Part shown: piece by piece, positions 23,138-31,739 of the stretch
Numbering within the stretch: position 1 is the stretch's first letter
How the letters are laid out: every line of letters starts with the position of its first letter
Assembly (NCBI GenBank): GCA_002238825.1
Contig: MPNC01000004.1
Coordinates: 255,241 to 319,240, forward strand
Length of the DNA: 64,000 bases
Reading direction: 5' to 3'
Source: SAR202 cluster bacterium bin87
GTDB lineage: Bacteria > Chloroflexota > Dehalococcoidia > Lucifugimonadales > UBA3495
Translations under genes and position numbers: made by a program
Notes under the pieces: model-generated
Databases searched by the model: none
What the model saw: the letters and a program-made list of their open reading frames with translations, nothing else
Told to the model about the DNA's origin: nothing

Positions 23138-24031
23138 TTGACCGCGCCAATCCTTGATCTCGACCTCCCGCCCGAGCATCCGCTGCGGCAGATATTGGAC
23201 TTCATTACGGCCCACCCCGAGGTCCGTCAGCCAGTGCTGCGCGCCCTGCTCACGGAGGACTTTCTGGCGCTACCCGTTCAGGTACAGGAACTGTCCGGCC
23301 GAGTGGACGGCGTCGCTGGACAAGTTGAAGAACTGACCCATCGAGTGGACGGTGTCGCCGGACAAGTTGAAAAACTGACCCATCGAGTGGACGGTGTCGC
23401 CGGACAAGTTGAAAAACTGACCCATCGAGTGGACGGTGTCGCCGGACAGGTCGACGAACTCCGCGGGGACCTCGGCAGCTTCAAGGAAGAAACGCGCGAG
23501 CAGTTTCGAGCGGTGAACACTCGTATCGACGAGACCAACACGCGCATCGACGAAAGCGCTGATTCTGTTGTACGTAGGATGGAGGGTTCTTTGGGACGCT
23601 TCAGGGGAGAAACCTACGAAAAACGTTGCTTAGAAAAGATAGACGAACTCCTGGCGAACCACTTCGGTTACGCGCAACCCCTTGACCGGGAGCCAATAAA
23701 TCGCCAACTGGCTCAGGTCCGCCAGGATGGAACGATCAGTCGCCAGGAATACCTCGACGGTCGCAATGTGGATATCATCGCGCACGACGCATTTGCCTCC
23801 GACGGCGAACGTCGATGGGCAGTCGTCGAAGTATCAATCACGTTCAACCGCAATGACCTGGAGAACTCGGCGCGCCGTGCCGCCATCATTGCCCAGGTAT
23901 TCGGTGTACACACCCGAGCGTTCGTGGTCACCAACAGTCCATGGCCGGATGACGTCAACGCCATCGCGGAGCAGATGGGCGTCACCATAGTCCGCAGTCA
24001 TGATCCGGTATACGAGGCCCAGCCACTCTAA
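23138..24031 (+). CDS. Coiled-coil repeat protein with C-terminal PD-(D/E)XK-like nuclease domain
   Basis: 297 residues from TTG 23138 (AGGTAA just upstream). Residues about 55-108 contain 14-residue repeats of the form RVDGVAGQVEKLTH, giving a long rigid coiled coil that continues to about 145. The C-terminal domain (about 150-297) has NVDIIAHDAF followed by RWAVVEVSITF (D, then E-V-S in place of the usual E-x-K), typical of a restriction-like fold. The fold assignment is inference. Such coiled-coil nuclease-like proteins are common in cyanobacteria and Chloroflexota. Repeat number could vary between strains. Confidence 0.65.
   Translation: MTAPILDLDLPPEHPLRQILDFITAHPEVRQPVLRALLTEDFLALPVQVQELSGRVDGVAGQVEELTHRVDGVAGQVEKLTHRVDGVAGQVEKLTHRVDGVAGQVDELRGDLGSFKEETREQFRAVNTRIDETNTRIDESADSVVRRMEGSLGRFRGETYEKRCLEKIDELLANHFGYAQPLDREPINRQLAQVRQDGTISRQEYLDGRNVDIIAHDAFASDGERRWAVVEVSITFNRNDLENSARRAAIIAQVFGVHTRAFVVTNSPWPDDVNAIAEQMGVTIVRSHDPVYEAQPL
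23303..23460 (+). repeat. 42-bp in-frame tandem repeat
   Basis: Three full units and one partial 42-bp unit starting GTGGACGGTGTCGCCGGACA, each coding 14 residues of coiled coil. Units 2 and 3 are identical in DNA, which shows recent expansion. Confidence 0.9.
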
Positions 24032-24105: not shown

Positions 24106-25191
24106 CTACCCCGTCAAATCACTCACCCGCGGCGACACCTCCTCGGCGATCAAGCGCAGGCAGTCCATCTCCCACTGGTGGTCGTCCGGGTCCTGCGTGA
24201 TGCACAGCAGATGTCCGAACCCGCCGACCTCGTCGTAGAGCTGCCGGATCCGCTGGGCGCACTCGTCCGGATCGCCCACGATCCAGATGTTCTCCATCAT
24301 GTAGTCAACGGTCAGGTCGTCGTCGCTCATGTTCGGGTCGATCTTGGTCGCCTGGATCAGGCCCGACCCCAGCCGGTTCGGCAGCTGGTGCTGCAGGTAG
24401 TTGCGTCCCAGAACCGCGTGGGCCCGCTCCCGCGCCTCTTCGCTGGTCTCGGCCACGAACACGTCCCGCCCGATGCGCCAGTCGGAGCGGCTGGCCTCCC
24501 GGCCGGCCTCAGCGGCGGCGTCCTCCACCGTGGTCCAGTGGTCCGCCAGGTACTTGGGGGCCAGGTTGCTGCTGCTCATGGGGATGTAGCCCTCGCGTCC
24601 GGCGACGCGGATGCTGCTGCTCCCGATGGACGTTGCGGCCACGCCGATGGGCGGGTGCGGCTGCTGCAGCGGCTTCATGTGCAGCCCGCGCTCCAGCACC
24701 GGGTCCAGTTCCGGCGCATCAATGTTAAAAAACTCTCCGTGATACGAGAACTGCCCTTCCGATGCCCACAGACTCAGCACGACGTCCAGCACCTCGGCCG
24801 CCCGCCGTCGCACGTCGTCGCCCTGGCTCGGGTCCATGCCGAACAGCTGCAGGTCGGTGGGGATCGCCCGGTGCCCGATGCCCCAGTACAGCCGCCCCCG
24901 CGTCAGGTGGTCCAGCATGGCGATGCGGTGCGCCAGCTCGATGGGGTTGTGGATGGGCAGCAGCGTCACGCCCGTGGCCAGCCGGATGTTCTCCGTCATG
25001 GCCGAAGCCTTGGCGATCAGCAAATCCGGGAACGGAGCGTTCTCCCAGCGCTCGGTGAGGTGCTCACCGATCCAGGCCTCGTGGAACCCCAGCCGGTCGG
25101 CCTCCTGCAGCAGGTCAAGGTCCCGGTCGTAGGAATCGGCATAGGAACGGTGCGGCGGATGCAAGGGCATCATGAACAGGCCGAATTGCAT
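24106..25191 (-). CDS. LLM class flavin-dependent oxidoreductase
   Basis: 361 residues, third luciferase-like monooxygenase of the window. It begins MQFGLFMMPLHPPHRSY and has FHEAWIGEHLTERWE (about 35-49), LLPIHNPIELAHRIAMLDHL, and a GIGHRAIPTD stretch in the flavin site region. It is closer to the enzyme at 3118 than to that at 21891 (shared EAWIGEH/EAWLGEH and IHNP/LHNP segments). AGGAGT precedes the ATG. Substrate unknown. Confidence 0.88.
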   Translation of the reverse strand: MQFGLFMMPLHPPHRSYADSYDRDLDLLQEADRLGFHEAWIGEHLTERWENAPFPDLLIAKASAMTENIRLATGVTLLPIHNPIELAHRIAMLDHLTRGRLYWGIGHRAIPTDLQLFGMDPSQGDDVRRRAAEVLDVVLSLWASEGQFSYHGEFFNIDAPELDPVLERGLHMKPLQQPHPPIGVAATSIGSSSIRVAGREGYIPMSSSNLAPKYLADHWTTVEDAAAEAGREASRSDWRIGRDVFVAETSEEARERAHAVLGRNYLQHQLPNRLGSGLIQATKIDPNMSDDDLTVDYMMENIWIVGDPDECAQRIRQLYDEVGGFGHLLCITQDPDDHQWEMDCLRLIAEEVSPRVSDLTG

Positions 25192-25258: not shown

Positions 25259-25744
25259 TCATGGGAGCCGCTGCACCGGGTAATCGGGAAAGTTCCGGTT
25301 CCAAGAGGCGATGTTGAAAACGCCGCAATCGCTGACGATCGACCGCACCCACTCAGAAGGCACTCCCACCGGCAAGGCCTGTTTCAAAGCTGCAGTTCGC
25401 CGCGTCAAATGGGCTGTACTCAGCCACCTCAGGGCTACCAACACGTAATAATATGACGGTTTGTCCGCCTTACCAGTCGCCCATTCGTATAGGAATGAGT
25501 CGCGATACTTGTACTTCAAATCTTGATCGAGCTCTCCACGCCGGAAAGCTTGAACCGGATCAGCGTTGACTGGAAATGCTCCGGAATCCTCGGGGTCCTT
25601 GAATTCAATGAAAAGGTAACGGTCAGGGAGTTCGACTAGAAAATCAACGGCTTTCATGATGGTCAGTCCATGGTCTTCAAACTTCCGCACATCCAGCACG
25701 TTGTTGAAGGTGATCTCCAAACCGCCCTCGGTGAACACCGTCAT
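25259..25744 (-). CDS. Small nuclease-like partner of the AAA ATPase
   Basis: 161 residues. The segment KAVDFLVELPDRYLFIEFKDPED (about 31-53) has the D...E-x-K pattern of a PD-(D/E)XK nuclease core. A basic YKYRDSFLYEW region and a C-terminal strand-helix follow. It starts inside the stop codon of the ATPase gene (ATGA), so the two are coupled. The pair resembles ATPase-nuclease defence modules, but I cannot match it to a named system. The nuclease assignment is inference from the single motif. Confidence 0.6.
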   Translation of the reverse strand: MTVFTEGGLEITFNNVLDVRKFEDHGLTIMKAVDFLVELPDRYLFIEFKDPEDSGAFPVNADPVQAFRRGELDQDLKYKYRDSFLYEWATGKADKPSYYYVLVALRWLSTAHLTRRTAALKQALPVGVPSEWVRSIVSDCGVFNIASWNRNFPDYPVQRLP

Positions 25745-26748
25745 CCGTTCAGACCCCCCAGGCTACGCTCGATTTCTCGGTCGTAAAGGTCATCGAACGC
25801 CTCGTCTATCGCGTTGGGGGAGATGTCCAAATAGCGGTTCGTGGTATGACACGCGATCTCGCCATCTTCGTCCCGATACAGCGAGTGGAACGCTACTGCG
25901 TTCTCCTCCTTCATCTGCAAGTCAAGCTCCTTCAGGATGACGTAGTTGTGCGTCGCAAAGAAAACCTGCACTCCCGCCCGCTGCAACTCCAGCAGCACCT
26001 CGATCACCACGCGGAACATCTTGGGGTTCAGGTTTGCCTCAGGCTCATCCCAGAAAAGCACGGAACCATCCCGCAACGTCCCATTCCGTATCAGCAGCCA
26101 CAACAACCCCAGCTTGCGCCATCCCTCCGCAAGCAAGCTGAACTCAAGGTCTCCGTGTTCGTTACTTAGAAAAAATTCCTCTCCACTGACCGACACGCTT
26201 CCGCCAATGACGTTTTCCAAGTTGTTAAGCATGCGCTCGTGTGCCTTGTCGATAGGCTCGCGCAAGGCGGGAAGATATACGCGTAGGAGGATGTCCTCAT
26301 AAACCTCCTCAAAGTGAACTTCTCGCGCCGAATATAGGGAAAGGAACCCAGGAGCGTTGGCCAGGACCTCTTTCACGGGAATATAAACGCTTTCAAGGGG
26401 CGAATCATCTTCTCCGACTTTTACCCCCGTCGAGCTCGTGCTCCGGTCTTTGAAAGTGGCCTCCAACAATAGGGTCCCTCTGTAAACCTGCACGATGCCT
26501 TGGGTTTCTTCATCTCGACGGTGGACTAATCTGCCGCCGGAACGCCCCGAAGGGAGAAACACGCCGATAAGTTTTTGCGCGAAGTTATCACCAGTTTTGA
26601 ATACATCGCACGCCGCATAGCAAGCCTTCATCAGGTGCGTCTTCCCCGTCCCGTTCGCACCAACCAACGCGTTGATGCCGGGCGAAAACTCCACCTCCAA
26701 GTCCTTGAACGCGGTGAAATTCTCCAGCTTTATCTTAGTAACAGGCAT
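25741..26748 (-). CDS. AAA (ABC-type, OLD/SMC-like) ATPase of a two-gene module
   Basis: 335 residues from ATG 26748, which has GAGGAA 7 bases upstream. Walker A is GANGTGKT (about 30-37). Walker B is SVLFWDEPEANLNP, which includes the catalytic Glu, and the H-loop is FFATHNY. This is the compact ABC-ATPase type seen in OLD, RecF-like and defence ATPases (PtuA, AriA). There is no TOPRIM domain on this protein. It is coupled by a 4-bp overlap to the nuclease-like gene. Likely role: nucleic-acid sensing that licenses the partner. Confidence 0.75.
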   Translation of the reverse strand: MPVTKIKLENFTAFKDLEVEFSPGINALVGANGTGKTHLMKACYAACDVFKTGDNFAQKLIGVFLPSGRSGGRLVHRRDEETQGIVQVYRGTLLLEATFKDRSTSSTGVKVGEDDSPLESVYIPVKEVLANAPGFLSLYSAREVHFEEVYEDILLRVYLPALREPIDKAHERMLNNLENVIGGSVSVSGEEFFLSNEHGDLEFSLLAEGWRKLGLLWLLIRNGTLRDGSVLFWDEPEANLNPKMFRVVIEVLLELQRAGVQVFFATHNYVILKELDLQMKEENAVAFHSLYRDEDGEIACHTTNRYLDISPNAIDEAFDDLYDREIERSLGGLNG

Positions 26749-26840
26749 GGCGCTTCCTCGTAGTATCGGGGCCCTTTCGATGCTAGTCCTGCCCTCCGCC
26801 AACTGTCAAACCGGCCCATGGCGCCCTCAAGACCCCCGTG

Positions 26841-26846
26841 TATAAT
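26841..26846 (+). promoter_or_regulatory. -10 box TATAAT for the S49 peptidase gene
   Basis: Perfect TATAAT, 36 bases before ATG 26883; no clear -35. It is divergent from the ATPase operon. Confidence 0.5.
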
Positions 26847-26882
26847 CGATTCATCTCCCCAATAAAGACCGCAGGTATCCCC

Positions 26883-27716
26883 ATGCCCCTCTTCAAACGC
26901 CGCCCCGGCATCGCAGTCGTCGAAATGCACGGCGTCATCGGCGCCGCCATCAAGGAACCCGACTACTCACGCATCTTCGAGCGCGTCGCCAACAACCGCA
27001 AGATCGGCGCCCTCGTTCTCGACATCGACTCCCCCGGCGGTTCGGCCACTGCCAGCGACCTGCTCTACGAGAACGTGCGCCGCGTGGCCCAGCGCAAGCC
27101 GGTGGTGGCCTACATTCGGGGCCTGGGCGCGTCTGGGGGCTACTACATCGCCTGCGGAGCCGGCACCATCATGGCCTCCCGAGCCGCCCTGGTGGGCTCC
27201 ATCGGCGTGATCTACATGCGGCCCATCGTCGAGCAGTTGCTGAGCAAGGTGGGGGTGGAGATCTCGATCTTCAAGGGCGGGCGCCTCAAGGACATGTCCG
27301 GCTTCTGGCGCCATCCCACCGACGAGGAAGCCGGCAAGTTCGAAGACCTCATCGCCCAGATCTATTCCCTGTTTGTCTCCGTCGTCTCCGACAGCCGCAA
27401 CCTGACCACCGAAGAGACCACCGAACTCGCCACCGGCGAGCTTTACACGGCTCCGGTAGCTCGAGACCAGAGGCTCATTGACCGGCTGGGCAACTTCGAC
27501 GACGCCGTCGCCGAGGCCATGCGACAGAGCGGCGCCCGTCGCAGGATACGCAGGTTCCGCCCCAAGCGTCCGTTCATGGAACGGCTGAGCCCCTTCCGTG
27601 GATCCAGCGCTCAGTGGCGTGCCCTGTCCAGCCTGGCCGCGATGGCCTCCGGCGGCATCTACATGATGGAGCCCGGGTTCCTGGGCTACGGGCTGACCCA
27701 CACCGGCGACGATTGA
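26883..27716 (+). CDS. S49 family peptidase (SppA-like)
   Basis: 277 residues. The Ser/Lys dyad of SppA-type proteases is visible: S84 in LGASGGYYIA and K136 in GGRLKDMSG. The N-terminus VVEMHGVIG and the DIDSPGGS loop are family features. There is no N-terminal membrane segment, so it is shorter than E. coli SppA and closer to the compact SohB/SppA36 type. A basic C-terminal extension (RRRIRRFRPKRP) follows the catalytic domain. Role: clearance of signal peptides or membrane fragments. Confidence 0.88.
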   Translation: MPLFKRRPGIAVVEMHGVIGAAIKEPDYSRIFERVANNRKIGALVLDIDSPGGSATASDLLYENVRRVAQRKPVVAYIRGLGASGGYYIACGAGTIMASRAALVGSIGVIYMRPIVEQLLSKVGVEISIFKGGRLKDMSGFWRHPTDEEAGKFEDLIAQIYSLFVSVVSDSRNLTTEETTELATGELYTAPVARDQRLIDRLGNFDDAVAEAMRQSGARRRIRRFRPKRPFMERLSPFRGSSAQWRALSSLAAMASGGIYMMEPGFLGYGLTHTGDD

Positions 27717-28799: not shown

Positions 28800-29396
28800 A
28801 TGGCAACGAAACCCATCGTCACCGGCACCCGCATGTCCATCGCCGAGTTCCTGGACCTTCCCGACACGGAAGAACGGAACAAAATGGAACTGGACGACGG
28901 AGAGCTTTACATCATGCCCAGACCCCGACCTGCCCACCAGTTCATCGCCTTTTGGCTTGGCTGGCATATTGCAAACTATATCGACAGCTTTGCAGAGCCT
29001 CCGGCCGAGGTCTGTATGGACCCGGTCACCATTCTGTCACGAGACCCGCGTCGCGTCGTGGTTCCCGACCTCACGGTTATCCTGTCCGAACGTCCCGGTC
29101 AAATAGTGGGTGGCTATTTTGAGGGGGTTCCCGACATCACGGTGGAGGTGCTCTCGACTGACCGCAACCGCGACCTCGTTCGCAAGCGCCAGATTTACAG
29201 TGAGGCCGGCGTTCCCGAGTACTGGATCTTCGATCCCGTCAACGACACGGCCTTGCTCCTCGAACTGCGCGATGGCGAGTATGTCTCCCGCGCCTTCCTG
29301 ACCGCTGACGACACCTTGACCACTCCCCTGCTGCCCGGTCTGGCCATTCCTTTGACCGAGTTATTCCACCATCGCCAGCGCCCCACCGATGCCTAG
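28800..29396 (+). CDS. Uma2 family endonuclease
   Basis: 198 residues, the standard single-domain length without a coiled-coil tail. Signatures are VVVPDLTVIL (PD), ITVEVLSTDRNRDL (E-x-L-S) and KRQIYSEAGVPEYWIFDP. GGAGG lies 6 bases before the ATG. The N-terminus SIAEFLDLPDTE is typical for the family. The stop overlaps the start of the following membrane-protein gene by 8 bp, so the two are co-translated. Confidence 0.88.
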   Translation: MATKPIVTGTRMSIAEFLDLPDTEERNKMELDDGELYIMPRPRPAHQFIAFWLGWHIANYIDSFAEPPAEVCMDPVTILSRDPRRVVVPDLTVILSERPGQIVGGYFEGVPDITVEVLSTDRNRDLVRKRQIYSEAGVPEYWIFDPVNDTALLLELRDGEYVSRAFLTADDTLTTPLLPGLAIPLTELFHHRQRPTDA

Positions 29397-31046: not shown

Positions 31047-31739
31047 CTACTCTGCGTCCGTTTCATATAGCGCGAAGATCCGCTGCCTCACCTCGAACAC
31101 AAACCCTGCCATCACCGGATCGCCGCTGACGCTCTCCGGGTCTTCCAGCACCGCCACCGCGACTTCAGGGCGGTACACGTACACCCGCCGGCGGTAGGGG
31201 TCGATCAGCCACCCCAGCAGCGCCCCGTTGGCCATGTACCGCTCCATCTTGCGCTGCAACGGCGGCAGCCGGTCGGACTCGGACATTATCTCGCCTACGA
31301 AAGCCGGACAGACGGTTACGGTCCTGGGCAACACGGGGCCAAGCTCCGCGATTTGCTCCGGCGACAGCCAGGACAGGTCAGGCTCGACACGCGTGCCGTC
31401 AGGCAGTCGGACAATCGCGCGCGAACTCAGGGTAAGTCCGCCGTGTTCACGCGACCATATCACCAGGCTCCCGATCCCTTCCGCTTCGGCAATGCCGCCG
31501 TGCAAGTTCACCATAGGGTTAATTACCAACTCCCCATCTGCGGTGAGCTCCAGATAAAACCCCCGCCCTTCGTTGGCCCGAGCAAAACCCACGAACCACT
31601 GGTCGATCTCGTCGTCGGTGAGCTTACCGGCAACCGACTCCAGGATCGGCTTGATGTTGACCGACAACGGCCCGGCCAACTCAAACTCCTCCGCACTGGA
31701 GGGATCTACGGATTGGGTGGTGGTGGCGATAGTCGCCAT
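31047..31739 (-). CDS. Uma2 family endonuclease
   Basis: 230 residues, more divergent than the other three. Visible signatures are VEPDLSWLSPEQ (PD), CPAFVGEIMSESDRLPPL (the E-x-M-S position) and KMERYMANGALLGWLIDP, all characteristic of the family. The N-terminus is an acidic Thr/Ser-rich leader. It lies 15 bp downstream of malate synthase on the same strand and may be cotranscribed by read-through; no functional link is implied. Confidence 0.85.
   Translation of the reverse strand: MATIATTTQSVDPSSAEEFELAGPLSVNIKPILESVAGKLTDDEIDQWFVGFARANEGRGFYLELTADGELVINPMVNLHGGIAEAEGIGSLVIWSREHGGLTLSSRAIVRLPDGTRVEPDLSWLSPEQIAELGPVLPRTVTVCPAFVGEIMSESDRLPPLQRKMERYMANGALLGWLIDPYRRRVYVYRPEVAVAVLEDPESVSGDPVMAGFVFEVRQRIFALYETDAE

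Follow-up and report, generated by a model that had tools for sequence, protein, structure and literature searches.

A probable HEC-02 pair of an ABC-type ATPase and a PD-(D/E)XK-like protein at a variable chromosomal site in a Dehalococcoidia genus

The window, a stretch of 64,000 nucleotides from SAR202 cluster bacterium bin87 (assembly GCA_002238825.1, contig MPNC01000004.1, positions 255,241 to 319,240), encoded an ABC-type ATPase (A) and, directly downstream, a small partner protein (B) (Table 1). The preliminary description had reported an ATGA overlap, an intact ATPase and a 161-residue partner with a D...EFK motif. All three were present, the nucleotide-binding motifs lying together in the 335-aa frame and the partner translation containing VDF...FIEFKD. 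The ATPase frame opened with an ATG at 26748 and closed with a stop codon at 25741; an in-frame upstream TTG would give a possible protein of 353 aa, and relatives supported the ATG. In the alignment of relatives (21 sequences), T37 of the ATPase was kept in 20. Among the aligned partners E47 and K49 were invariant (21/21), and D34 was found in 20/21, the exception (L023) carrying N.

Table 1. Features of the gene pair and its immediate flanks (positions in the window; residue counts refer to the alignment of relatives)
Feature	Position	Strand	Basis
HEC-02A, an ATPase of 335 aa, ABC-type (OLD/RecF/SMC-like; Pfam AAA_21)	25741..26748	-	ORF, PADLOC, Pfam, model
HEC-02B, a putative nuclease of 161 aa, PD-(D/E)XK-like	25259..25744	-	ORF, PADLOC, model
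ATGA stop/start overlap of ATPase and partner genes	25741..25744	-	sequence
Walker A (P-loop) GANGTGKT, ATPase residues 30-37	26638..26661	-	translation; G30, G33, G35, K36 in 21/21
Putative ABC signature region LLAEGWRKLG, ATPase residues 205-214	26107..26136	-	E208, G209, R211 in 21/21
Walker B / D-loop region LFWDEPEANLNP, ATPase residues 231-242	26023..26058	-	D234, E235, P236 in 21/21
H-motif ATHNY, ATPase residues 265-269	25942..25956	-	T266, H267 in 21/21
Partner E6, candidate first catalytic acid	25727..25729	-	E in 21/21
Partner D34 ... E47-x-K49, candidate PD-(D/E)XK catalytic core	25598..25645	-	conservation in alignment
Flanking gene, outside module: luciferase-like monooxygenase	24106..25191	-	Pfam Bac_luciferase E 2e-54
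Flanking gene, outside module: S49/SppA-like peptidase	26838..27716	+	Pfam Peptidase_S49 E 7e-43

The monooxygenase gene lay 67 bases downstream of the partner on the same strand and was 94-98% identical across the genus, while the peptidase gene was upstream and divergent. The wider neighbourhood was not a defence island but mostly a metabolic one, with genes for CoA transferase, M24 peptidase, MazG, malate synthase and a 5'-3' exonuclease. Two genes of the Uma2 family (putative restriction endonucleases) were also found near the pair (28800-29396, plus strand; 31047-31739, minus strand), the first of them matching the candidate PDC-S03. A 297-aa protein encoded at 23138-24031 (plus strand) contained coiled-coil repeats that are nearly identical (VDGVAGQVEKLTHR) and, at its C-terminus, a weak match to PDDEXK_10.

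Both proteins matched, end to end, curated profiles of a candidate anti-phage system catalogued as HEC-02 (PADLOC-DB 2.0.0). The ATPase matched the HEC-02A profile PDLC04213 over residues 1-331 of 335 (E 1.1e-123) and the partner the HEC-02B profile PDLC04229 over residues 1-160 of 161 (E 8.6e-48). Nine more HEC-02B models matched the partner in PADLOC at E <= 0.03, and HEC-02B models were the only PADLOC matches up to E <= 1. The partner matched nothing in Pfam or NCBIfam, nor did its profile match PDB sequences at E <= 5. The ATPase also matched Pfam AAA_21 (E 5.3e-20) and the AriA profiles of PADLOC, at E 1.7e-20 against 1.1e-123 for HEC-02A. Chance can be excluded for the pair, because the curated profiles matched end to end and because the four-base overlap recurred in 21 of the 24 loci described below, with start codons chosen mechanically. 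The profile search suggested in the preliminary description thus returned an existing system, and the term "unnamed" used there had to be given up, both halves being named by full-length models; the rest of that proposal was supported, namely a coupled ABC ATPase and small PD-(D/E)XK-like partner that probably form a defence module. HEC denotes a Hma-embedded candidate, and antiviral activity was reported for several HECs, HEC-06 among them, in PMC12988326, which cites a 2024 preprint. The literature search, which stopped short of the 2024 naming preprint, found no phage-protection or nuclease assay and no mechanism for HEC-02, and only an unrelated use of that name.

Comparison with named systems agreed with the earlier remark that the partner lacks HNH or TOPRIM features and that Septu, PARIS and Gabija do not fit, as neither feature was matched in Pfam or PADLOC. 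Septu (PtuA-PtuB) likewise combines an ATPase with a small nuclease, and its PtuA was the closest Foldseek match of the ATPase model (E 1.1e-14), but PtuB is an HNH nuclease whereas the partner is PD-(D/E)XK-like; membership was ruled out, the partner matching HEC-02B models only, with neither an HNH (PtuB) nor any Pfam model. PARIS (AriA-AriB) is also a two-gene module of an ABC ATPase and a nuclease and is also recruited by BREX according to PMC12839542, but AriB is a TOPRIM protein, and PARIS was rejected on the lack of an AriB or TOPRIM match to the partner in Pfam and PADLOC. Gabija was rejected since the 335-aa ATPase aligns with no more than portions of the GajA models, which span 534-687 positions, and the 161-aa partner had no helicase match in Pfam or PADLOC that would make it a GajB. 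The likeness to HEC-02 lies in the full-length match of both proteins to the A and B profiles as an adjacent pair; the window copy differs in being solitary, in a metabolic neighbourhood and in a Dehalococcoidia genus without detected PglZ. The kind of pair is already known, because a 2026 survey, PMC12839542, reports OLD-ABC ATPases paired with HNH, PD-(D/E)XK or PIN nucleases from 594 taxa around BREX and BREX-related systems. The dyads of OLD-ABC and PD-(D/E)XK-REase recruited by BREX in that survey are the same kind of pair, likened here by kind and not locus by locus, and the window copy differs from them by lying outside BREX.

In the predicted structure of the partner (pLDDT 82.5, 12 sequences), strands at residues 35-38 and 43-49 carried or bordered D34 and E47-x-K49. 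Foldseek gave weak matches, the first being the small subunit of R.BspD6I (E 0.011), and the top VIA-align match was N.BspD6I (Z 6.9, rmsd 3.9, 120 aligned). The other high-ranking VIA-align matches included R.BspD6I2, Cdn1, FokI, McrC, Can2 and Hjc, mostly PD-(D/E)XK nucleases. The likeness of the modelled fold to these nucleases is moderate, and unrelated proteins such as acetyl-CoA carboxylase also reached Z 5-6 in VIA-align. Taken together, the model matches and the conserved residues favour, without proving, an active PD-(D/E)XK nuclease. The ATPase model (pLDDT 74.9) was equally like the heads of SMC, PtuA and Rad50 in VIA-align (Z 17-20).

Searching with the partner yielded 24 distinct loci, including the window, so that linkage is expressed given the partner. 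Duplicates of one genome were counted once (e.g., L003 = L044, L004 = L052, L006 = L054, L008 = L046), and three hits were left out: L002 (E 0.47), L014 (E 2.5e-4, matching neither A nor B) and L034 (a partial B at a second locus of the genome of L009). The ATPase gene was immediately upstream of the partner gene in all 24 loci, and the linkage for which a gene-neighbourhood check had been proposed therefore held. The ATPase was truncated or broken in three of these loci: it was cut by the contig end in L005, an internal deletion in L048 (genome G561) left the beginning of A fused to the last part of B, and about 5 kb of inserted sequence interrupted A in L058 (genome G578). The insert of L058 (10477-15579) held three ORFs of 392 aa with a common start and is possibly a mobile element. 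The partner had no match in 50,697 phage records or in a first scan of viral contigs; a second scan of viral contigs, using the alignment, found one contig, L019, itself a BREX locus.

Six of the 24 loci lay within BREX operons. The pair was found between PglXI and BrxHI in L011 and L019, before BrxHI and PglZ in L010, between brxC and pglX on plasmid pLM6 in L020 and, in L024, with BrxC and one additional gene on one side and PglX on the other. L021, on pTomMM15c, had the same gene order as L020 and its record identifies no more than a phosphatase and a Lon protease; gene order and annotation together place it, by inference, in a BREX operon. Three more loci were near other defence genes, giving 9 of 24 with defence neighbours: L005 was near a type IIG restriction-modification-like gene and HEC-01A, the pair of L009 (a Synergistota genome) followed DarT and DarG, and within 10 kb of L022 there were PDC-S33 and a weak match to TIR. 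For the other 15 loci, no defence gene was shown nearby in PADLOC flank scans that were partial and did not cover L023 and L058. In the proteins flanking the pair in the window, L003, L007, L012 and L059, 83 in all, PADLOC at E <= 1e-15 matched PDC-S03 and PDC-M32A only; the former match was the one in the window, and the latter was a single protein of the 83, outside the 20 scanned singly. The expected association with defence islands was accordingly upheld in part, by nine loci (six BREX, three other), and failed for the mainly metabolic neighbourhood of the window itself.

Further candidate genes accompanied some of these loci. A second, broken HEC-02A directly preceded the intact pair of L009, after DarTG (L009:7812-8776), and L034 held a further HEC-02A with a partial partner about 20 kb from that pair. 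HEC-01B directly preceded HEC-02 in L010 (1285-1944) and HEC-01A was near HEC-02 in L005 (6649-7806), which suggests that these candidates travel together.

The site of the pair was surveyed in 14 genomes of the genus, the window's own included; L004 and L006, recorded as Dehalococcoidia, were among the congeneric loci. An intact pair was found beside the monooxygenase in nine genomes, a remnant in one (G561) and none in four. In G560, the contig of the intact pair ended before SppA. Of the genomes without the pair, G558 and G563 had the monooxygenase and SppA genes adjacent, 230 and 182 bases apart, G567 had another gene in the interval, and in G562 the two genes were apart from each other. 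This coexistence of intact, decayed and absent states at one site in a Dehalococcoidia genus, along with a discordant nuclease tree (see below), is the new detail added to the catalogued system.

A PglZ domain was found neither in the 14 congeneric genomes nor in G578 and G581, two genomes of the same family with the pair, by a Pfam PglZ search that was positive for two of three BREX control genomes, the operon of the third (G112) being cut by the contig end. This search with the Pfam domain and added BREX genomes replaced an initial one that had matched nothing, controls included. BREX dependence in this genus is therefore unsupported. The six operon loci would fit a BREX accessory that needs BREX proteins, with solitary copies as relics, yet the pair occurs in this genus and in the two same-family genomes with no PglZ found, and its solitary copies keep intact motifs and signs of purifying selection, which makes such an accessory very unlikely here.

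Housekeeping was also considered, the pair being in that case a Rad50/Mre11- or RecF-like ATPase and nuclease of DNA repair or replication and not a defence module. The ATPase model, about as close to the heads of SMC and Rad50 as to PtuA, and the mostly metabolic flanks of the window would suit it. Against it speak the patchy distribution of the pair, which was rare in the phylum (4 of 400 genomes) and present in 12 of 60 relatives, the empty sites in close relatives, the decay in G561 and G578 and the copies in BREX operons elsewhere, and a repair role was judged highly improbable.

Divergence differed between the pair and its flanks in the eight genomes with both flanks, a small sample. Mean identity fell from 96% in the monooxygenase through 81% in SppA and 71% in A to 59% in B. 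Median dS reached 1.8 in A, against 0.60 and 0.75 in the two flanks, and could be defined for B in only 6 of 28 pairs; median dN/dS was 0.13 for A and 0.15 for B, the B value again from only 6 of 28 pairs. These ratios show the solitary copies to be apparently under purifying selection. The matched spans of SppA in G557 (L044) and G564 (L050) held in-frame stops, which may reflect a sequencing error, the edge of the alignment or decay.

Flank distances correlated with each other (r 0.88, p 0.0002) and not with those of A or B, and A and B distances agreed weakly (r 0.31, p 0.056). A five-genome clade, defined from the flanks and present in both flank trees, was rejected by B (AU p 6e-43) but not by A (p 0.13). 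In tests whose clades were named after the trees were seen, B rejected a clade of G568 with G566, the closest genome by A (p 4e-53), A rejected a clade of G568 with G557, the closest genome by B (p 0.001), and two further tests of this type on A gave no rejection (p 0.11, 0.36). Informative sites of G568 supported G566 within the initial 400 bases of A (112 to 18), were mixed across the remainder of A (70 to 58), supported G557 across B (96 to 53) and supported G566 again beyond B (97 to 51). The nine intact copies of the genus formed one clade (99/97), separate from the BREX copies. Because of these tree and site patterns, in a small sample, the history of the pair would comprise one entry at the site, followed by loss and exchange between congeners, B having moved separately from A in one case or more. 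The intact, decayed and absent states and the strong conflict of the B tree with the flanking genes likewise imply gain, loss and allele exchange at the site.

The best reading is that the pair is a member of HEC-02 and an ATPase-gated nuclease module, autonomous here, a joint proposition that we consider probable. Counting against it are the moderate fold match of B, the N in place of D34 in L023, the mostly metabolic surroundings of the window copy, the 15 loci for which defence neighbours were not shown, and the rarity of the pair in the phylum. The ATPase would dimerise or oligomerise on ATP, keep the partner inactive and sense an infection signal, which may be DNA of an unusual kind, a replication intermediate or an anti-restriction protein made by the phage. 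AriA of PARIS senses such a protein, Ocr. On the signal, the ATPase would license the partner to nick or cut nucleic acid, and the phage would be stopped or the cell killed. Gating of B by A is proposed by analogy with PARIS and Septu. In BREX operons the pair may serve as a backup effector, and in the Dehalococcoidia genus, where PglZ was not found, it would act alone.

The roles might instead be distributed otherwise, B being the sensor or DNA-recognition part, with a PD-(D/E)XK fold that binds a phage signal, and A a motor or scaffold. B is the more variable half (mean within-genus identity 0.59 against 0.71 for A), its tree departs most from the flanks, as expected of a recognition part, and inactive REase folds paired with NTPases are often sensors according to PMC12839542. 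A B that only senses needs no catalytic-type residues, yet E6, D34, E47 and K49 persist in at least 20 of the 21 sequences, and this arrangement appears unlikely. Under the preferred reading of a gated nuclease, the catalogued HEC-02 is tied to a BREX-free chromosomal setting, where an autonomous ATPase-gated PD-(D/E)XK nuclease is predicted. The fixed site with its intact, decayed and empty states, together with the discordant nuclease trees, is a natural test set for which half carries specificity.

Somewhat doubtfully, the interval between the monooxygenase and SppA genes may be put forward as a small site in the chromosome where defence cassettes are exchanged, in which B would be swapped between species partly independently of the ATPase, as restriction specificity subunits are, so that one ATPase chassis would serve varied partners and a second, HEPN-like gene would share the site.

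A gene whose product, of about 230 aa, has an R-x4-H motif and is presumably HEPN-like occurred in this interval in G559, G565 and G568, which have the intact pair, and in G567. It was unmatched in Pfam (three copies) and PADLOC (one copy). The motif read RNQLLH or RSQLIH, three copies having been aligned and that of G559 located by tblastn, and the gene lay at L053:3497-4204, L054:3419-4108, L051:5653-6354 and about 5472-6186 of L046.
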